Shown: positions 3,762 to 33,343 of the stretch, in pieces | Layout: every line of letters begins with the position of its first letter | How positions within the stretch are numbered: the stretch's first letter is position 1 | NCBI RefSeq assembly: GCF_947166265.1 | Contig: NZ_CAMVDO010000025.1 | Span: 1-42,682 of the forward strand | Direction of reading: 5' to 3' | Source: an uncultured Fibrobacter sp. | GTDB taxonomy: Bacteria > Fibrobacterota > Fibrobacteria > Fibrobacterales > Fibrobacteraceae | DNA: 42,682 nucleotides | The notes under the pieces: model-generated | Seen by the model: only the letters and a program-made list of their open reading frames with translations | Told to the model about the DNA's origin: nothing | Databases searched by the model: none | Made by a program: the position numbers and the translations under genes

Positions 3762-3836
3762 ATCCCCGCTTTTCAACCTTGTTCAACGTTTACTTTCAAG
3801 TTTCAGCCAAAAAGCAACATTTTCAAGGAGAAAATC

Positions 3837-5291
3837 ATGAAAAAAATGCAATGGATGCTCGCGACGTCCCTGGTATGTGGGGGCGCCCTCTTTAACGCCT
3901 GTTCCGATGACAGTTCGTCGAGCAGCACACTGGAAGAACCGAAGCCCAGCGTAGAACGCACCGCCTTCGTGGAAAACACTCGCGCAAACCTCAAGGAACT
4001 TGCAGAGAACCTCAACTTCAATTCATGGGAACTCGCCAACCATATAAATATGGATTTTAACGAAAATGTTCTCAACAATCCTGAAGTCGAAAACGCCATT
4101 ACGCTTACCCTCAGCCGGGACATTTTTGAAAGCATCACCGACGTGGACAAGAAGAGCGAACTCGGCAAGATGGGCTACAAAAAAATGGCTACGGTCGACC
4201 TGAACAAGCTCAATTACAGCTTCACCCTGCAAAAGGATGGGACGTTCGATGTCAAGGAAGCCAAGAACTTCGAAATGATCCTTCCGCTGAAGAATCCGGA
4301 AACCCAAAAGATTCTCGAGAAATCTCTTAAGCTGACCATGAAGATGGGCAAGGATTCGTTCAAGCACATTCTCAAGAAGTTGTCCACCGACGAACTTGCA
4401 GTCGTGATGAAGGTTCCGGAGGAAATTTCCTTCGCACTCTCTATCAAGCCCGAAGGCAAGTGGATTGACCTCTACACTGGTTCGTTCAAGAACGAAGTCA
4501 AGATGAGCGGCAAGTCCGAATACCTCGACAGGATGACTTCCGCCTTCAACGCCACTGGCGAAATCAAGTCCTCTCTCGAAGCCGCCGAACTTGCTAGTGG
4601 CAAAAAGGTGGAAGCCGATGCAGCATCGATCGCATTTGCTATCGGACAGGATCCGGCAAAGCACATGGCAGGCGCAAAGATCGCTTTTGTGCATAACAAG
4701 AAGAACATGCTGGCCTACCGTATCGTGCAGACCCGTACAAATAAAAACCCCATCGACTTCTCGAACATGGCCAACAGTGACGGCATCGTGGACGTATTCT
4801 CGGTTATGACGGGATTGATCTCCGACTTGAGCATCGACAGCTCTTCGCTGACCTTGCTTGACGATGTCACCATTGCGATGAAGGTGTCCGATACAGGCAA
4901 GTTGCTCAAGGCTCAGCAGGAACTGGCCGCCGCCCGTCGCAGCTACGCCGACGAAAAGACCATCGAAAACTACACCAAGCAGGTGAACAAACTGGTGACC
5001 GCATCTATCACCGCAAAAGAAGTGGACCAGGAAATTCCAGTCACTTTCGAAACGGTGCAGTTCGGTGTTGACTTCTGGACGATGCCCGCCCTGCAGTTCA
5101 ACAAGGACGAAGGCAATGTTCCGCTGACTCAGGTTCTTGACCAACAGTCCATCGCCTACTGCCTCAACATCATCGACCATGCTGCAGAGCCCATGCAGGA
5201 CGCTCTCGTAGTTGCCCGTCAGCTTATACAGTACTTCCAGAAGATTGCTGGCCTGTATGACGACTATCAGCTCGATAAAGCCAACGACTAA
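3837..5291 (+). CDS. Fibrobacter-type lipoprotein, paralogue B
   Basis: A 484-residue lipoprotein with ATG preceded by AAGGAG. Its signal peptide matches paralogue A (730-2175) residue for residue except near the cleavage site (F-N-A-C instead of F-T-A-C), and the DNA around the start codon is also nearly identical. The central part has diverged and carries a few extra residues, while the C-terminal third is again closely matched. This pattern fits an older gene duplication with constrained ends or partial gene conversion. No domain I can name is present. A strong bidirectional terminator follows. Function unknown; probably outer-membrane or periplasmic-face lipoprotein. Confidence 0.85.
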   Translation: MKKMQWMLATSLVCGGALFNACSDDSSSSSTLEEPKPSVERTAFVENTRANLKELAENLNFNSWELANHINMDFNENVLNNPEVENAITLTLSRDIFESITDVDKKSELGKMGYKKMATVDLNKLNYSFTLQKDGTFDVKEAKNFEMILPLKNPETQKILEKSLKLTMKMGKDSFKHILKKLSTDELAVVMKVPEEISFALSIKPEGKWIDLYTGSFKNEVKMSGKSEYLDRMTSAFNATGEIKSSLEAAELASGKKVEADAASIAFAIGQDPAKHMAGAKIAFVHNKKNMLAYRIVQTRTNKNPIDFSNMANSDGIVDVFSVMTGLISDLSIDSSSLTLLDDVTIAMKVSDTGKLLKAQQELAAARRSYADEKTIENYTKQVNKLVTASITAKEVDQEIPVTFETVQFGVDFWTMPALQFNKDEGNVPLTQVLDQQSIAYCLNIIDHAAEPMQDALVVARQLIQYFQKIAGLYDDYQLDKAND

Positions 5292-13136: not shown

Positions 13137-14140
13137 TCTGGCTTGGAATAGAATCAAGCTGCGACGAAACCGCCTGCGCCGTATTGCAGGACGATCCTGT
13201 AAAAGTCCTCTCGAACCCGCTCTACAGCCAGATCGACGAGCACGCGCTATACGGCGGCGTCGTTCCCGAAATCGCGGCACGCGCCCACCTGCAGAAAATT
13301 TCACCCATCGCAGAAGCCGCCGTCAAGGAAGCCGGCATCGAACTCAAGGACATCGACGCCATCGCCTACACCACAGGCCCGGGCCTTATGGGACCGCTCC
13401 TTGTCGGAGCAAGCTTTGCAAAGGGACTTGCCCGCGACTTGCAGATTCCGGCATACGGCATGAACCACCTGGAAGGACACCTCGCCGCAGCCTGGCTCAC
13501 GCACCCCGAAATCGAGCCGCCGTTTTTGACACTCACCGTTTCGGGCGGGCACACGGAACTTGTACTTGAAGAGCCCGGTTTCAAGTACACCAGCATCGGG
13601 CGCACCCGCGATGACGCAGCAGGCGAAGCTTTCGACAAGTGCGGCAAGTTGCTCGGCCTCAAGTACCCCGCAGGTGCTACCATCAGCCGCCTCGGTAAAG
13701 ACGGCAACCGCAAATTCGTCGACTTTCCGCGAGCACTCCACGTTCACGACAACTGCGAATTTTCTTTCAGCGGCCTAAAGACCGCCGTGCTCCGCTACAC
13801 GGAAACGCACGATCCCGAATTCATTCAGAAAAACATCGGTGACATCTGCGCCTCGCTCGAAGATGCCATTGTCGATAGCCTTGTGACAAAGACCATTACC
13901 GCCCTCAAGAAGACCCGCATGAAAACCCTCGTGGTCGGAGGCGGCGTGAGCGCAAACGCCTGGTTGCGCACAAGGTTGCAGGACTACTGCGAAAAGCACG
14001 GGATCATGTTCTGCATTCCGGAACGCAGCCTGAGTACCGACAACGGAGCCATGATTGCAGCAGCAGCCATCCGTCGCAAGTTGCAGGGAAAACTCACCTC
14101 GGTGAACGAAGTCAAGCCCTGGATGCCTCTCGCCCTGTAA
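13133..14140 (+). CDS. tsaD: tRNA N6-adenosine threonylcarbamoyltransferase TsaD
   Basis: A 335-residue cytoplasmic enzyme that transfers the threonylcarbamoyl group to A37 of ANN-decoding tRNAs, acting with TsaB, TsaC and TsaE. Seen are G-I-E-S-S-C-D-E-T at 5-13, the metal-binding H-L-E-G-H at 112-116, T-V-S-G-G-H-T-E-L, S-F-S-G-L-K-T-A-V, V-V-G-G-G-V-S-A-N and the final D-N-G-A-M-I metal site. The length is typical for bacterial TsaD. The ATG overlaps the preceding stop (ATGA). A GC-rich hairpin with a weak U-tail follows. Confidence 0.96.
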   Translation: MIWLGIESSCDETACAVLQDDPVKVLSNPLYSQIDEHALYGGVVPEIAARAHLQKISPIAEAAVKEAGIELKDIDAIAYTTGPGLMGPLLVGASFAKGLARDLQIPAYGMNHLEGHLAAAWLTHPEIEPPFLTLTVSGGHTELVLEEPGFKYTSIGRTRDDAAGEAFDKCGKLLGLKYPAGATISRLGKDGNRKFVDFPRALHVHDNCEFSFSGLKTAVLRYTETHDPEFIQKNIGDICASLEDAIVDSLVTKTITALKKTRMKTLVVGGGVSANAWLRTRLQDYCEKHGIMFCIPERSLSTDNGAMIAAAAIRRKLQGKLTSVNEVKPWMPLAL

Positions 14141-14164
14141 CATTTCAGGGAAAGCACATAAAAC

Positions 14165-14184
14165 GGGGCCCCGAGCCCCTATTT
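14165..14184 (+). terminator. Possible weak terminator after tsaD
   Basis: GGGGC and GCCCC form a short stem around CCCGA, followed by TATTT only. The T-content downstream is modest, so termination would be inefficient. Confidence 0.35.
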
Positions 14185-14230
14185 CGTCACGCTTTTTTGA
14201 CGCCCCCTTTTCTTTTCTGTTTTTTCATTG

Positions 14231-14236
14231 TATATT
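14231..14236 (+). promoter_or_regulatory. Putative -10 box (TATATT)
   Basis: TATATT immediately precedes one ATG (14237) and lies six bases before a second in-frame ATG (14243). If it is the -10 element, transcription starts at 14243, giving a leaderless message. No good -35 is seen at 17 bases. Confidence 0.4.
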
Positions 14237-14242
14237 ATGGGT

Positions 14243-14704
14243 ATGCTAGACAGAATTATCTTCACGCTGATGCACAAAACGGCCAAAACGCTTGCCGTGT
14301 GTTTGGCATTCTGTCTTATACCCCTTGCAGGCGCTTGGGCACAAGATCTGGACAAGCCCGTAAGCGACGTCGAAGTTTTCCGCCCCGAAAAGCGCGACAC
14401 CAAGGTGGAACTAGTCGATTCGACCAAGAACAATTCAGTCACGCTGAACGTAGACATTTTCGCCGACGGAATCATCGGTTCCTACTACATTCTGTGGGAC
14501 GACGTCGACCTCTCCGAAGATATCAAGCAGCTGATGACCACGCGCGACTTTGCCCGCGACGAATTCTTTATGCAGAACATCGACCGCGAACAGTTCGAGC
14601 AGGAACGACTGTTGCAACTTTTCGAAGACAAGAAAAAGGAATACTTCGCCATTTTCCCCGAAGAAGCGCTGAAGATGATCGAAGACCAGCAGAAAGATAA
14701 GTGA
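14243..14704 (+). CDS. Small exported protein of unknown function
   Basis: A 153-residue protein with an N-terminal signal peptide ending A-G-A-W-A-Q. In-frame starts exist at 14237, 14243 and 14270 (M-H-K-T-A-K); none has a Shine-Dalgarno, and 14243 is chosen because of the -10-like box six bases upstream. The mature part is acidic: beta-type V-T-L-N-V-D-I-F-A-D-G-I-I-G-S-Y-Y-I-L-W-D, followed by a helical E/Q/K-rich C-terminus with F-E-Q-E-R-L-L-Q-L-F-E-D-K. I recognise no family. It lies alone between tsaD and a dispersed repeat. Periplasmic location is inferred. Confidence 0.7.
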   Translation: MLDRIIFTLMHKTAKTLAVCLAFCLIPLAGAWAQDLDKPVSDVEVFRPEKRDTKVELVDSTKNNSVTLNVDIFADGIIGSYYILWDDVDLSEDIKQLMTTRDFARDEFFMQNIDREQFEQERLLQLFEDKKKEYFAIFPEEALKMIEDQQKDK

Positions 14705-14769
14705 TTAGGAGAGTGGTATGAGGTCGCGGCGTTGCCGCTTTGAGGAGTGAGGGGTCAGGTATCAGGAGA

Positions 14770-14912
14770 GTGTCATCCTGAGCGTGGTTTGCTTCGACAA
14801 AGCTCAGCACAGGCTTAAGCTCACGCTTCGCGGGCTCGCTAACCGAAATAAGGTCCCTGAGCTTGCCGAAGGGCCGGAGCAACGGTCCGAAGTGAAAGAC
14901 GTCGAAGGATCT
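14770..14912. repeat. Dispersed intergenic repeat, copy 2
   Basis: This copy begins GTGTCATCCTGAGCG and ends CGAAGGATCT, in the same orientation as copy 1 (454-572). It carries about 24 extra bases near its right end (GCAACGGTCCGAAGTG region). Just before it, 14700-14769 is a G-rich run of AGGAG and GGGGTCAGG motifs with no ORF. It fills most of the gap between the exported protein and birA. Confidence 0.75.
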
Positions 14913-14940
14913 CTTGTTGAAAACATCTAGTGATTAGTTC

Positions 14941-15840
14941 ATGTTTAGCAGCGAAAAAAATTTCAGCGAATGGAGTCTCTCGGGATTCAGCGGCGCCCCC
15001 GCATTCCTTTTCGAAACGCTCGAAAGCACCCACAGCTTAATGAAGGCCCGCGCCGCATCCGGAAAAATTGTTCCCGGCACCTTGATGGTCGCCGACACGC
15101 AGACGGCAGGACGTGGCCGTCACGAACGCACCTGGGACTCCCCCGCCGGTCTCAACCTCTACTTCAACATCCTGATTCCGCTAGATGGAATCCCGCTCGC
15201 CTCGGCACCGCAGATTACGCAAGTGGCGGCGCTTACCTTCGCTGAAATTTTCAAGAGCCTCCAGGATGACGCCAACGCGAAAGGCCTCGGCAACCAGGAC
15301 ATTGGGAAAGTCACCGTCAAGTGGCCAAACGACATCCTCTGCGGAAAGCACAAGTTCTGCGGGATTTTAGCAGAGTTAGTATTTATAAAGGAGATTCCCG
15401 CCTTCGCGGGGATGACAAGCACACAAGGTTCTCCGAAGCCCGCCATCAGCATGGGCGTGGGAATCAACGTGAACAGTTCCCCCGCCGACTACGCCCACCT
15501 GGGCCGCAGCGTCACAACACTGAAAGATATTTGCGGACAAAAGATTAATCGCGAAAAATTATTGCAAATGCTCATCGGCAATCTGGAACGCGCCATCGGG
15601 CAGTTCCGCGCCTTCGGCATCCGCCCGTGGATTGCTGCGTGGAAACGCATGGACCAGTTCATCGGCGCCCGCGGAACTATAGTCGTGAACAACCGATGCA
15701 CCGACCAGAACCGTAACAGCGGCGAAGGCTCCATCAAAAAAACAGGCTCCATTCTCGACATGCAAGACGATGGAAGCCTGCTATTCAAATGCGACGACGG
15801 AACCATAGAAACCGTCTATTCCGCCGACTTAGAAGTGTAG
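14941..15840 (+). CDS. birA: Biotin--[acetyl-CoA-carboxylase] ligase with repeat-encoded insert
   Basis: A 299-residue enzyme that activates biotin as biotinyl-AMP and attaches it to a carrier-protein lysine. It has the catalytic G-R-G-R-H-E-R-T-W at 57-65, K-W-P-N-D-I at 127-132, C-G-I-L-A-E at 140-145 and G-V-G-I-N-V-N at 172-178, plus a short C-terminal beta domain. There is no N-terminal helix-turn-helix, so it is a ligase only and not a repressor. Between the strand G-I-L-A-E-L and the strand I-S-M-G-V-G-I-N-V, residues about 149-165 are F-I-K-E-I-P-A-F-A-G-M-T-S-T-Q-G-S, encoded by a dispersed palindrome; other BirA proteins have a short turn there. The frame is preserved. Confidence 0.92.
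   Translation: MFSSEKNFSEWSLSGFSGAPAFLFETLESTHSLMKARAASGKIVPGTLMVADTQTAGRGRHERTWDSPAGLNLYFNILIPLDGIPLASAPQITQVAALTFAEIFKSLQDDANAKGLGNQDIGKVTVKWPNDILCGKHKFCGILAELVFIKEIPAFAGMTSTQGSPKPAISMGVGINVNSSPADYAHLGRSVTTLKDICGQKINREKLLQMLIGNLERAIGQFRAFGIRPWIAAWKRMDQFIGARGTIVVNNRCTDQNRNSGEGSIKKTGSILDMQDDGSLLFKCDDGTIETVYSADLEV
15391..15416. repeat. Palindromic repeat inserted in frame within birA
   Basis: ATTCCCGC (15394-15401), a CTTC loop and GCGGGGAT (15406-15413) form a stem with one G-T pair, bounded by GAG and GAC. It belongs to the same style as 421-441, and its translation gives the E-I-P-A-F-A-G-M-T peptide that such repeats produce when they fall in coding sequence. Confidence 0.75.
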
Positions 15841-15846
15841 GGAAAG

Positions 15847-16374
15847 TTATAATCTTTCTTGATTACTCCATTCATCATATACTTGTTTAATAGCATAATA
15901 TGTAGAAGAAAAATCAAATTGCGCCCTATAATTTTCATCTCTCACAATATTTCTAATTTCCTCAAAATACGTCTTTTTAAACCTTGTCTTATCAATTTTG
16001 CCGTCGATATACTTCATGCATGCTTCCTCATATACATTCAAGTAATCCTGCTGAGCATCCCTAAGAAGATTGTCCACTAGTTCCACCAAGCCCGGATTCT
16101 TTGCGATATCCGGATTAATTCTTGACATCAGCGTATTTTGTATTGCCGATGCCAAAAAGCGTCTTGCTTCACTAATCATTTCTCTAACCTGTATTTCCAT
16201 ATTCCCATTAGACAATCGCGTATTCTCAGCAGCCAAAGCTACATTCTGCGAAGAGATCCTATTCGCCTCCAAGCTCGCCTTATTTGCTTTCGCACTTGCT
16301 TTGCAGGAAAAAACAACAGCCACTATTGAAATGATGATTGGTACAATAATTCCAATTATTTGAAGCGCAAACAT
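15847..16374 (-). CDS. Membrane-anchored coiled-coil protein, unknown, AT-rich island
   Basis: A 175-residue protein. The ATG follows the upstream gene's TAA directly, and its strong GGAGG Shine-Dalgarno lies inside the end of that gene, so the two are translationally coupled. Residues 4-23 form a single membrane helix (I-I-G-I-I-V-P-I-I-I-S-I-V-A-V-V-F) ending at S-C-K, then a coiled-coil segment (about 25-70) of Ala, Asn and Glu, then a soluble helical domain with R-R-F-L-A-S-A-I-Q-N, E-E-A-C-M-K-Y-I-D-G-K-I and Y-Y-A-I-K-Q-V-Y-D-E-W. Similar short TM-plus-coiled-coil proteins are common in accessory and defence regions, but no family is recognised. Codon use is AT-rich, unlike birA next door. 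Confidence 0.75.
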   Translation of the reverse strand: MFALQIIGIIVPIIISIVAVVFSCKASAKANKASLEANRISSQNVALAAENTRLSNGNMEIQVREMISEARRFLASAIQNTLMSRINPDIAKNPGLVELVDNLLRDAQQDYLNVYEEACMKYIDGKIDKTRFKKTYFEEIRNIVRDENYRAQFDFSSTYYAIKQVYDEWSNQERL

Positions 16375-16662
16375 TTAAACCTCCAGGTATTTTTTTGCTT
16401 TCTCAAGCGCCTTTAAAATTTCAGAATTGTTCGTACATCTTAAAACGAACATTCTTTCATTACACTTTCCATAATCTGGAAGCGACCTTGACAATTGTCG
16501 TTCAAAATCTTCTCTAAAGAAAATATTTTCTAAGTCATTAACAACCTCAAGCTTTCGCGAATTCTCAAATTCGTTCAAAATCTTATTCAATTCATCTTCT
16601 TTATCAGCGGCTTTTTTCAGCCTATATACATAAGAAGCTTTTCTTTCTTCATATAGAGACAT
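16375..16662 (-). CDS. Small helical protein, first gene of AT-rich pair
   Basis: A 95-residue soluble, highly charged protein, all helical by eye, with N-terminal S-L-Y-E-E-R-K-A-S-Y-V-Y-R-L-K and a central E-N-I-F-F-R-E-D-F-E-R-Q-L. Two Cys occur at residues about 67 and 75. ATG 16662 has a GGAG about ten bases upstream. It is followed without a gap by the membrane protein gene. It is divergent from the STAND-TPR gene across about 306 bases. No family is recognised; a regulatory or partner role for the membrane protein is inferred only from coupling. Confidence 0.7.
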   Translation of the reverse strand: MSLYEERKASYVYRLKKAADKEDELNKILNEFENSRKLEVVNDLENIFFREDFERQLSRSLPDYGKCNERMFVLRCTNNSEILKALEKAKKYLEV

Positions 16663-16968
16663 ATTCTATCTACTCCATTTTTTCATATAAATTTACCTTA
16701 TTTTACAAACAAAATATCAATCAAATTCTTTTTTTTCTCGCACAAATTTCTTATTCAACACAAACAAACATCGGCCCAACCTATTTGGCACACAAACAAA
16801 CTGAAATAAGGACCGAGCATCCACCAAGCCTCAAAAGAACCATAATCGCACATATTTCAAGAGACAAACCGGAGGTTGCCGTCTAGAAACAATAGCCTAC
16901 ACCATTCACCGCATCCAAATGATATATATTTATAGGCAGCAAGATCCCTTTTACAAAAAGAGGCATAT
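16663..16968. other. AT-rich divergent promoter region
   Basis: No gene is seen in these 306 bases. They separate the divergent minus-strand pair from the STAND-TPR gene and must hold both promoters. CACAAACAAAC occurs twice (around 16758 and 16790), an exact 11-base direct repeat that could be an operator or chance in A-rich sequence. Confidence 0.5.
16925..16930 (+). promoter_or_regulatory. Putative -10 box (TATATT) of the STAND-TPR gene
   Basis: TATATTTATAGG lies about 39 bases before ATG 16969, leaving a leader of about 30 bases that contains the AGAGG Shine-Dalgarno. The TATATTTA form matches the tRNA promoters in this window. The -35 is weak, which could mean regulated expression. Confidence 0.4.
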
Positions 16969-19938
16969 ATGGGCTTAAAAGTTCGTAAACAAGATTCCAC
17001 CTCTCAGGCGAGCCGTATTTTTACAGACCGTGAGGAGCCCCGTAAATCATTTTGGAAAAAATATGACGAATTCAAAACCATCATGCATGATGACGACGTA
17101 AGAGTTCTCGCGTACTACGGCATCGGCGGAATAGGAAAAAGTTCCCTGCTAAAAAAACTGATATCCGAAATGGATGAAAAAAAAGAAGAAGGTTCAATCA
17201 GCAAATCATCACATGTTTATTTCGATTTCAATATCAGTCAAGAATGCCGGTCTATACTAGAAAGTATTCGCAAAAAACTCGTTTGCGATTACAACTTTGA
17301 TTTTCCGCTTTTTGATATAGGCTGTTATGCATACGCACAGAAGATTGGGGTTGATACAAACAAGCCTACAACAAAAACTTTTATTGAGCGTAGTCGAACA
17401 CTCGATTTCTTGTTTGATCTAGCAAAAGAGCTCCCTCTCGTAGGGTTTGCCGCAAAAATCATAAAATTGGCAGACAAGGGATTCGCCGCATGCAAAGACC
17501 TCATTCAAGAAAACAAGGATGTCGTAGAAAAAATCGAGAACAAGTCCTCCGAAGAACTGTACGATTATCTACCCTGTTTATTTGCAAAGGACCTGGCATA
17601 CAACGTAAAAAACAACAAAGAACCATTAGTGATATTTCTTGACACATACGAACAACTTGTAAATGAAATGGCCCCTATCGGCGAACCCTTAAACAAAGAT
17701 CTTTGGCTAAGAGATGAGAAAAATGGCTTAATTGTAAATACTCCAAACGTTCTATGGGTCATCGCGGGCAGAGAAAAACTAAAATGGCAACAATTTACCG
17801 ATTGGGGAGAATCTTTGGAACAGCACATCCTTGGGAGTTTGTCAAAGCAGGATGCAGCAACCTTCTTGAAAAGTTCAGGGATTAACGATGAAATGTTTAT
17901 TGAAGGAATTTATAATTTAACTCAAGGAACACCCGTATATCTGGACTTGTGTGTAGATCGGTATAATTCAATTCTTGAGAAAGGCGAAAAACCAAAAATT
18001 GAACATTTCGGACAAAACATATACACCTTGATAGAACGATTCGCCCGATACATGGACGATTCCAAAAAAGACATTGTCTACATTCTGGCTTGCTTAAAAA
18101 ATTGGACCGACGAAATGGTCCTAGAAATCGGGCCAAGGATTATCCCCAACTTCAGTTCAACCACTTATGAAAAAGTTAAGGGATTCTCGTTCGTCATTCA
18201 ATCAGATAAATCAAGTTACAACTTACACCAAACCGTTGGCGATTCGCTCTATAAAAATTGCACCGAAATTATCCAGCAAAGAACATGCCTTGAGGCCATT
18301 GAGTATTGCACAAACAAACTCAACAACACAAACGTTTTTTCCAACGATTTTGATTACTATACCGGCTGGCTTTTAAAATATGCAATCAGCTATTACAAAG
18401 AGGATGACGCACTCCGTATTTTTTACATCGACAACATACGTGTTTATCTAAAGAAATTAAGCGATGTCTATCGTTTCAATTCCATTGATGACTTGTTTAC
18501 GCCATTTTGGGACAGAGCTTCCCAAAATCCAGAAAGTAGACTATTTGCTCTTGCGCAAAAAGACTATTCCATTTGGCTTCAGAGCAAAGGCAAATACCAA
18601 CAAGCTTTAGATTTAGCAAAGAGATCATACGATTCATACCTAAAATTACTTGGTCCAAATGATGCGGCAACTCTAAGAGCACAACGAGAATATGCTGCAG
18701 GATTGCATAATACTGGTGCTTACAAAGAAGCCTTAGAGATTAGGGCGGAAATTCTAAAGAGAAGAATTGTCATATTGGGTGAAAATAATTTAGAAACCAT
18801 TGAATCGTATGTAGACATGAGTAAATCGTATGGGGAATTCGGTTTATACGAACAAAAAATGGAGTGTGCAAAAAAAATTTTCAACCTACGAAAGCAATTA
18901 CTCGCCCCCAATGATCCCAAATTTTTACTAGCCAAAAACAATTTTTCCAAATGCTACAGATTGTTAGGACAAAATGATAAAGCCCACGAAATAAGTCTTC
19001 CTTTAATAAAAGAAGCTGAAGAAATACTAGGGAAAGAACACGAAATAACATTAGACATTATTGCAGAACACACATCAATCCTTGCAACCCTAGGTCGATA
19101 TGAAGAAGTTCTTTCTCTTCGAAAAACAATTCTCGAAAGAAGAATGCATTCTCTTGGAGAAAATCATCCGAAAACTATCGCAGCATTAAAAAGTCTAGCC
19201 AGCGCATATGACAACATGGGGCACTATGCAGACGCCTTGCCTCTACGCCAAAGCCGATTAAAAAAATGTCGTACCTTATATGGAGAATTACATCCTAAGA
19301 CATTGAAGGCTTCTTGGGGTTTAGCATATAATCTTGAGAAACTTGGACGATATCAGGAAGCACTCAACCTACGCAAAGAAATTTACGAAAAATACAAACA
19401 AACCCAGGGGGAAGACTTTCCCGACACTATTGACGCCTATGCAAACATAGCTATCAACTACAAAAATCTCGGATTATACGACAAGGCTCTTGAAATAAGG
19501 AAAAATGTCTTCGAGAAAAGAAAGGTTCTACTTGGTGATGAGCATCCTGATACAATAACAGCACAAACAAGCCTAGCCAGCGCATACGACGACATGGGTC
19601 ATTATGCAGACGCGTTGCCCTTACGTCAAAGCCGGTTAGAAAAATGTCGTTCTCTGTATGGCGAACTACATCCTAAAACTCTAAAGGCCCTTTGGGGGAT
19701 AGCATCTAATCTCGAGGATCTTGGACAATATCCAGAAGCTCTTACTCTACGCAAAGAAATCTACGAAAAATACAAACAAACCCAAGGGGAAGACTTTCCC
19801 GACACTATTGACGCCTATGCAAACATAGCCAGAAACTACAAGAATCTCGGACTATTCGACAAGGCTCTTGAAATAAGGAAAGCAGTCTTCGAAAAAAACT
19901 ACTTGGAGATAAGCACCCCGACACTATTGACGCAATGA
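16969..19938 (+). CDS. STAND-type NTPase with C-terminal TPR array (frame ends early at a slippery site)
   Basis: A 989-residue protein. Residues 51-59 are a P-loop, G-I-G-G-I-G-K-S-S; 219-226 (P-L-V-I-F-L-D-T) are Walker B; 261-270 (V-L-W-V-I-A-G-R-E-K) look like the sensor segment; and T-Q-G-T-P-V-Y-L at 318-325 matches the G-x-P motif of NB-ARC/NACHT-like domains. A winged-helix-like part (about 360-440) follows. From about 530 onward there are tandem 42-residue kinesin-light-chain-type TPRs, with L-G-x-x-H-P-x-T, L-A-x-x-Y and A-L-x-L-R. The 20-45 region (F-T-D-R-E-E-P-R-K-S-F-W) has no effector domain. STAND proteins with TPRs act as sensors, several of them antiviral. The frame ends 12 codons after A AAA AAC; TPR sequence continues in the -1 frame. 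The DNA is AT-rich. Confidence 0.88.
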   Translation: MGLKVRKQDSTSQASRIFTDREEPRKSFWKKYDEFKTIMHDDDVRVLAYYGIGGIGKSSLLKKLISEMDEKKEEGSISKSSHVYFDFNISQECRSILESIRKKLVCDYNFDFPLFDIGCYAYAQKIGVDTNKPTTKTFIERSRTLDFLFDLAKELPLVGFAAKIIKLADKGFAACKDLIQENKDVVEKIENKSSEELYDYLPCLFAKDLAYNVKNNKEPLVIFLDTYEQLVNEMAPIGEPLNKDLWLRDEKNGLIVNTPNVLWVIAGREKLKWQQFTDWGESLEQHILGSLSKQDAATFLKSSGINDEMFIEGIYNLTQGTPVYLDLCVDRYNSILEKGEKPKIEHFGQNIYTLIERFARYMDDSKKDIVYILACLKNWTDEMVLEIGPRIIPNFSSTTYEKVKGFSFVIQSDKSSYNLHQTVGDSLYKNCTEIIQQRTCLEAIEYCTNKLNNTNVFSNDFDYYTGWLLKYAISYYKEDDALRIFYIDNIRVYLKKLSDVYRFNSIDDLFTPFWDRASQNPESRLFALAQKDYSIWLQSKGKYQQALDLAKRSYDSYLKLLGPNDAATLRAQREYAAGLHNTGAYKEALEIRAEILKRRIVILGENNLETIESYVDMSKSYGEFGLYEQKMECAKKIFNLRKQLLAPNDPKFLLAKNNFSKCYRLLGQNDKAHEISLPLIKEAEEILGKEHEITLDIIAEHTSILATLGRYEEVLSLRKTILERRMHSLGENHPKTIAALKSLASAYDNMGHYADALPLRQSRLKKCRTLYGELHPKTLKASWGLAYNLEKLGRYQEALNLRKEIYEKYKQTQGEDFPDTIDAYANIAINYKNLGLYDKALEIRKNVFEKRKVLLGDEHPDTITAQTSLASAYDDMGHYADALPLRQSRLEKCRSLYGELHPKTLKALWGIASNLEDLGQYPEALTLRKEIYEKYKQTQGEDFPDTIDAYANIARNYKNLGLFDKALEIRKAVFEKNYLEISTPTLLTQ
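19192..19937 (+). repeat. 378-bp in-frame tandem repeat (three TPRs per unit)
   Basis: Unit 1 is 19192-19569 and unit 2 is 19570 to about 19937. Both begin with codons for S-L-A-S-A-Y-D and contain nearly identical blocks, such as the DNA for K-Y-K-Q-T-Q-G-E-D-F-P-D-T-I-D-A-Y-A-N-I-A. Each unit encodes 126 residues, that is three 42-residue TPRs. Unit 2 lacks seven bases relative to unit 1 at the frameshift point (19892-19898). High DNA identity points to a recent duplication. Confidence 0.85.
19893..19899 (+). promoter_or_regulatory. Candidate -1 frameshift heptamer A AAA AAC
   Basis: In the reading frame of 16969-19938 the codons are GAA AAA AAC, so the heptamer has the X XXY YYZ phase needed for -1 slippage. 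A shift here re-reads C19899 and continues as L-L-G-D-K-H-P-D-T-I-D-A-M, exactly the expected TPR sequence. An AAGGA at 19875-19879 lies 13 bases upstream, comparable to the stimulatory Shine-Dalgarno of E. coli dnaX, but the same bases occur in the other repeat unit. No convincing downstream hairpin was seen. Confidence 0.45.
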
Positions 19939-32523: not shown

Positions 32524-33343
32524 CGAGCAGCTCCTTTACTATCCAGTCTGGATCCTTTTCCATGACGAACACTTCTTCCAGGCTCGAAAATTCCTGGAAC
32601 GGATCAACATCCATCTGGCGCATGACATCGAGGTCGGACTTGCGGACCTCCATTACCGTCCCCAGGGGAATGCCCTTCGGGAAAATGCCGCCCAGGCCAG
32701 AAGTCACCAGAGTATCGCCCACCCGGATTCCCGCATGCGCAGGAATCATCGCCGTAAGGCTATGACCATCCTTAGATTCCAGGAATCCCACCACACGCGT
32801 CCTGCGATCCATTACAGACAACTTAAGGTTTGGATCCACCAGCAGCTGTACGCGCGAATGATTCACCGAGGCCTTCGAAATCTTTCCGACCAGACCGTTC
32901 ATCGAAAACACGGGCATGTTTTCCTTCACGCCATGTTCCGTACCGCGGTTAATCACCATCGTCGTAAGGAAACGCCCCGGATTGTGGCCCACCACACGGG
33001 CTGTCACAATCGGGTAATCCCACTTGTCATCAAACCGAACTAGCGTATGCAGTCGGGCGAGTTCCAAGAGCCCTTCGCGGGCATGATAGGTTTCAAGCCT
33101 CAAGCGGGCATTCTCTTCTTTCAGCTGTTCGTTTTCCTGAACAATAGACTTGTAATGCCCTACCGCAGAAACAATCCGCTGCGCCGGGAAATACAGAGTC
33201 GAAAGCGCCGTCGAGACAACGCTTTCCCGCACGGGAACCGGAGCCTGCCGCATCAAAAGCCCAAGCACCAAGAAAAAGACAAAGGCAACGATTCCGTGCC
33301 TTTGCGAAAACAATTCGACTATAAAGCGAAACGCCCTAAGCAT
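32516..33343 (-). CDS. mreC: Rod-shape determining protein MreC
   Basis: A 275-residue bitopic protein with one membrane helix (about 17-32), a coiled coil (about 65-95: E-N-E-Q-L-K-E-E-N-A-R-L-R), and a periplasmic beta-barrel domain with T-A-R-V-V-G, V-I-N-R-G-T-E-H-G-V, M-P-V-F and V-T-S-G-L-G-G-I-F-P-K-G-I-P-L-G. These are normal MreC marks. It activates PBP2 by direct contact. It follows mreB by 14 bases. Confidence 0.93.
   Translation of the reverse strand: MLRAFRFIVELFSQRHGIVAFVFFLVLGLLMRQAPVPVRESVVSTALSTLYFPAQRIVSAVGHYKSIVQENEQLKEENARLRLETYHAREGLLELARLHTLVRFDDKWDYPIVTARVVGHNPGRFLTTMVINRGTEHGVKENMPVFSMNGLVGKISKASVNHSRVQLLVDPNLKLSVMDRRTRVVGFLESKDGHSLTAMIPAHAGIRVGDTLVTSGLGGIFPKGIPLGTVMEVRKSDLDVMRQMDVDPFQEFSSLEEVFVMEKDPDWIVKELLDE

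Follow-up and report, generated by a model that had tools for sequence, protein, structure and literature searches.

A putative CGTC-1-type REP element lies in frame in a predicted surface loop of Fibrobacter BirA, probably a recurrent site of REP insertion

CGTC REPs are defined by a CGTC tag, which often takes the form TGTC, and those of family 1 have 8-bp stems starting with AT, 4-nt loops and a short tail (PMC3733652). The CGTC-1 family includes dRS3 of Neisseria and RPE-6 of Rickettsia, and RPE-4 belongs to the CGTC REP superfamily (Di Nocera et al. 2013, PMC3733652). CGTC REPs have no dedicated transposase, and many of their intragenic copies are in frame (PMC3733652). Xanthomonas campestris and X. 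oryzae carry REPs at about one position of recB (PMC3733652). Neither Di Nocera et al. (PMC3733652) nor the RepRanger survey mentions Fibrobacter, and a literature search on the encoded peptides and on Fibrobacter together with REPs returned nothing relevant.

The element described here lies in birA, within a 42,682-nt stretch of DNA from an uncultured Fibrobacter sp. (the window). The gene (14941..15840, plus strand) was assigned by Pfam, phmmer and fold match to a class I biotin protein ligase of 299 aa without the N-terminal HTH. Its product matches Pfam PF03099 (E 2.4e-14), and the BirA model matches biotin ligases (2ewn, Z 24.9, rmsd 3.2, 246 aligned). The phmmer alignment between E. coli BirA and Fibrobacter BirA (E 6e-20) starts at E. 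coli residue 77, which indicates that the N-terminal DNA-binding domain is absent from the Fibrobacter protein. birA was detected in 77 of 80 genomes of the genus, as one gene per genome, and its frame is open in nearly all 77. One exception is G068, in which the two halves of birA lie in different frames at the variable loop described below (G068:C238:3636-4443, L127); this break reflects either an assembly error or an insert that disrupts birA.

The REP element in birA is a 27-nt unit, GAGATTCCCGCCTTCGCGGGGATGACA (15391..15417, plus strand), which forms nine whole codons, E151-I-P-A-F-A-G-M-T159, and has the layout GAG-ATTCCCGC-CTTC-GCGGGGAT-GAC-A. Its hairpin (15394..15413) is composed of an 8-bp stem (15394-15401 / 15406-15413), which begins with AT as in CGTC-1 REPs and contains one T:G mismatch, and the loop CTTC (15402-15405). 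The asymmetric end of the element is formed by a GTC tag on the minus strand (15414..15416; TGTC when 15417 is included). Read on the opposite strand, the element is (T/C)GTC-ATCCCCGC-GAAG-GCGGGGAT-CTC(C). A reading of the letters and their open reading frames (the sequence-only reading) had described this palindrome, ATTCCCGC-CTTC-GCGGGGAT, as an in-frame insert at 15391-15416. The palindrome is indeed present in frame within the 299-codon ORF, but the repeated unit is somewhat wider than that span, running as (G)GAGAT...ATGAC(A) from 15391 to 15417. The 27-mer occurs once in the window, with 0 occurrences expected by chance. Five of the six reading frames of the unit are open; together with the length of nine codons, this suggests that a protein would remain functional after an insertion into a tolerant loop.

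In the genome of origin (G000, 3.77 Mb), the element pattern gave 89 strand-hits, corresponding to 47 distinct copies, and the reversed pattern, used as a control, gave 0-1 matches. The palindrome is thus recurrent, as had been predicted, and is not confined to birA. The ends of the unit are conserved among the copies. GAC is kept in 47 of 47, followed by A in 38, G in 8 and T in 1, and AT is present at the stem start of both arms in 46-47 of 47, with the stems ATCCCCGC/ATTCCCGC. The loops include CTTC, CTGC, CTAC and CATC. In the tail, G occupies position -3 in 96% of the copies, A position -4 in 89% and G position -5 in 62%. Conservation over the 47 copies covers A/G at -4/-3, the AT of both arms, the stem and loop, and GAC; it reaches background 1-2 bases past GAC and declines more slowly on the other side (GG 62%).

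These features suggest that the Fibrobacter element is a CGTC-1-type REP, whose defining features it shows except for the exact tail sequence. Both have an 8-bp AT stem, a 4-nt loop and a T/CGTC tag at one end, and both lack a dedicated transposase and have intragenic copies in frame. A short unpaired tail is present but is CTC(C) instead of the usual CCA, and the tag is mostly TGTC, in contrast to the CGTC that names the class. Head-to-head dimers predominate among CGTC-1 REPs, as a typical and not a defining trait, whereas the Fibrobacter copies are mostly single, some with a half copy ~20 nt further on. The 5-nt loops found in some birA hairpins of other species are a CGTC-2 trait.

The comparison with Rickettsia palindromic elements (RPE) made in the sequence-only reading was one of concept; the likeness is closer than that, as RPE-6, RPE-4 and dRS3 are all CGTC REPs (PMC3733652). 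Because RPE-6 belongs to the CGTC-1 type, which the Fibrobacter element fits, the analogy comes close to kinship. In both systems palindromes lie in frame within otherwise conserved protein genes and the gene is retained, which in Fibrobacter applies to birA, hemD and the gene for an FAD-dependent protein across species, and to acyltransferase and MrcB-like ORFs in the genome of origin. Rickettsia, the RPE host, lives as an intracellular parasite and has a small genome, whereas Fibrobacter is a gut bacterium with a 3.8-Mb genome, and the occurrence of several repeat types at one site in different species sets Fibrobacter apart from RPE. RPE-1 and others are also longer than the Fibrobacter element. 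GTAG REPs and REPINs are likewise short palindromes, dispersed in bacterial genomes and asymmetric at one end, but they have a GTAG tag and a linked RAYT, neither of which accompanies the Fibrobacter element (47 copies; the genome of origin and eight RAYT loci). Xanthomonas recB resembles Fibrobacter birA in that orthologues carry different REPs at one position; it involves two species only, in contrast to the three enzymes, many species, both orientations and nested repeats of Fibrobacter.

Five of the 47 copies are located within convincing genes, which encode BirA, an FAD-dependent protein (PF21688; G000:C3:177076-178704, L205), a membrane acyltransferase (PF01757), a methylase/HemD fusion (PF00590, PF02602; G000:C26:14447-16039, L175) and an MrcB-like protein (PF12102). 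Three frames of the unit are in use, giving EIPAFAGMT, DPRLRGDD and VIPAKAGIS. Bacterial genomes are coding for the most part, so five genic copies are far fewer than random placement would give, which suggests that most insertions into genes were probably removed. Copies under long ORFs in L066, L071, L074, L087, L012 and L068 were not counted as genic (antisense or spurious-looking frames), nor were those near GuaA (L016) and an HAD-like gene (L007), which lie upstream of the likely start. The palindrome ATTCCCGCATGCGCAGGAAT in an mreC-like gene (32727-32746, minus strand, MIPAHAGI) is REP-like but has no GTC tag and was likewise set aside.

Two of these proteins have further repeats in other species. 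One HemD loop, compared in 30 species, was observed with empty sites and with single, double and nested copies. Among the nested forms, a second palindrome takes the place of the 4-nt loop of the first in L184 and L198, and a 24-nt repeat-like piece lies inside the 4-nt loop of the first palindrome in L193 and L195, in frame in all four. A second HemD loop contains the repeat CCCTGAGCTTGCCGAAGGG, for which the genome of origin gave 126 strand-hits. HemD matches with one in-frame stop were reported for L176, L182, L184, L188, L193, L195, L197 and L198. REPs occupy a common loop of the FAD-dependent protein in the genome of origin, G001, G047, G005 and G055. Repeat-like pieces of other kinds occur in G002, G040 and G046, and in G002 (L235) they come with ~43 extra codons that leave the frame open. 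Other repeats were also observed in the window. An intergenic composite repeat, GTGTCATCCTGAG...CCCTGAGCNTGCCGAAGGG, has two copies (453-568 and 14769-14885; 94% and 84% in two blocks), and its CCCTGAGC part gives 126 strand-hits in the genome of origin and is present in the second HemD loop as well. Long direct repeats at 713-2014 and 3820-5130 (84-85% identical, ~3.1 kb apart) are probably duplicated genes.

The birA copy lies in a hypervariable region of the protein (codons L146-P165, with the loop at 150-165; 15376..15435, plus strand), recognized from a 69-species alignment, low pLDDT and the E. coli alignment. In an AlphaFold2 model built with 32 related sequences (mean pLDDT 84.9, pTM 0.85), loop 150-165 joins strands 137-149 and 166-175 and has a pLDDT of ~51, with values <50 at 156-161. 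The sequence-only reading had placed the added residues (about 149-165) at the turn that joins two core strands and had suggested modelling as a check for a surface loop. The model agrees on both counts, with the insert in a low-confidence hairpin loop between core strands, and the 27 nt are thus predicted to fall in a floppy surface hairpin of BirA. The E. coli counterpart of the loop, counted off the alignment, is formed by BirA residues ~192-199, a turn that takes part in the repressor dimer. This dimer turn would be dispensable in a ligase that lacks the DNA-binding domain, and loss of the domain is therefore a plausible explanation for the tolerance of inserts. A second BirA loop (residues 106-122; window 15256-15306) is also highly variable in length between species (L126, L106, L112), and no tagged hairpins were found in it.

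The birA genes of 69 species, represented by one genome each and many of these metagenome bins, were compared over the segment between strand ...GILAE and strand MGVGIN, which ranges from 10 to 40 residues. The proposal that related BirA proteins have only a short turn here is borne out in many species (10-16 residues), but not in the two nearest, G002 and G039, which have an unrelated loop sequence of equal length (25 residues in the segment compared). As so many other loops are 10-16 residues long, an unrelated sequence of the same length is not general among the relatives, and the alignment shows the element absent or replaced at the same site. Whole birA genes contain 12 tagged hairpins in 12 species, and all 12 are located in the loop (4.1 kb), with 0 in the other 57 kb. 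Perfect 8-bp AT-stems are present in 11 loops (ATCCCCGC, ATCCCCGA, ATGCTGAC, ATGCTGAA and ATGCCGAA, with hairpin loops of 4 or 5 nt); the copy in the window, ATTCCCGC, has its one mismatch, and L094 has a 7-bp version, TCCCCGC. Six stem sequences and both orientations were observed, including an inverted copy in L043 that translates as VIPAKAGIS. The CCCCGC element is found in 69 of the 80 genomes and is multi-copy in carriers, with exact matches reaching 70 in G015 and numbering 63 in G044, and the CCCCGA form in 52 of 80. The GCYGAA form is rarer, and the birA copy is its sole exact match in G045, G051 and G057, which gives no support to mobility of this form within these species.

Two other accounts of the hairpins bear on this distribution. 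The loop might be a fast-evolving, unconstrained turn in which the likeness to repeats is accidental or selected at the peptide level, and loops that are long yet without repeats (L111, L117), as well as the variation of the second BirA loop without REPs, would fit such a turn. This account is scarcely credible, as the whole unit matches 46 other loci at the DNA level, mostly outside genes, and tagged hairpins are restricted to the one BirA loop. It is also very improbable that the hairpin is retained as an RNA or regulatory element in the birA message, acting in stability, pausing or attenuation. REPs elsewhere are established to influence mRNA stability and termination (hypotheses in PMC3733652), but the hairpin is missing or different in most related birA genes, the stem of the copy in the window is imperfect, and Rfam gave no match at 14000-17000.

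The history of the hairpins was read on a BirA tree from which the loop columns had been left out. This tree requires 4 changes for the forward CCCCGC type and 2 for the CCCCGA type, and its well-supported branches force at least 3 of the former and both of the latter. Sister species differ at the site: L043 (inverted copy, 26 aa) is paired with L051 (11 aa) with 96% support, and L095 (25 aa) with L103 (15 aa) with 89% support. Hairpins gained once or twice in ancestors could instead have diversified their stems by compensated drift or by gene conversion from the dispersed repeats. Such a history is consistent with flanks that are partly common between types (GACAAGTGAGAATGCGCCGCG in L095, similar in L105), with several BirA loops that resemble decaying remnants, and with types C and D, which are compatible with a single origin. 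We consider it unlikely, although it keeps appreciable weight: the inverted copy of L043 is not derivable by drift, near-empty sites occur in sister species, the forced changes argue for repeated events, and the nested second repeats of HemD require new insertion. As drift, conversion and loss can account for part of the differences, the number of insertions is a range rather than a count.

Insertion of a CGTC-1-type REP in frame in the surface hairpin loop of BirA, where it would be translated as EIPAFAGMT, with the loop as a recurrent REP site, is very probably the correct explanation. Such a REP would enter the loop in frame and add nine residues, copies at less tolerant sites would be purged, and different REP types would enter, leave or replace one another in different species. 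We infer that the changes were insertions and not excisions or conversions, and the intact single-copy birA genes suggest that the insert is harmless to BirA. As the same loop contains different hairpins in other species, it seems that functional enzymes keep receiving small peptides from such repeats. A single-strand (Y1-type) transposase, no longer intact in the genome of origin, would mobilise them in trans. No intact Y1/RAYT transposase was found in this genome; its one Y1_Tnp trace is a C-terminal fragment within a frame of 87 codons (G000:C29:22489-22662), and current mobility is therefore doubtful. Y1_Tnp (PF01797) is present in 27 of the 80 genomes. The sequence scanned around eight RAYT-like loci of other species contains no tagged hairpins, and linkage thus gives no support to RAYT as the mobiliser. 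The element may have spread by mobilisation in trans, through past activity or by another route.

Intragenic CGTC REPs were already known; what goes beyond the reports we found is that, across a genus, single enzyme loops are filled repeatedly by REPs of several types, in some cases nested. The insertion of palindromes in frame, for which Rickettsia is the best-known case, is thereby extended to a genus of gut bacteria whose genomes measure 3-4 Mb. We tentatively raise the possibility that the loops of BirA, HemD and the FAD-dependent protein are standing landing pads for several palindrome families, with nesting, continual turnover and new in-frame peptides, amounting to an ongoing, genus-wide evolution of protein length. 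If so, such evolution would operate outside obligate intracellular bacteria. As filled, empty and nested sites are available in dozens of species, two questions can be put to the test: whether functional protein sequence arises from small palindromes, and by what means CGTC REPs move when no transposase is dedicated to them.
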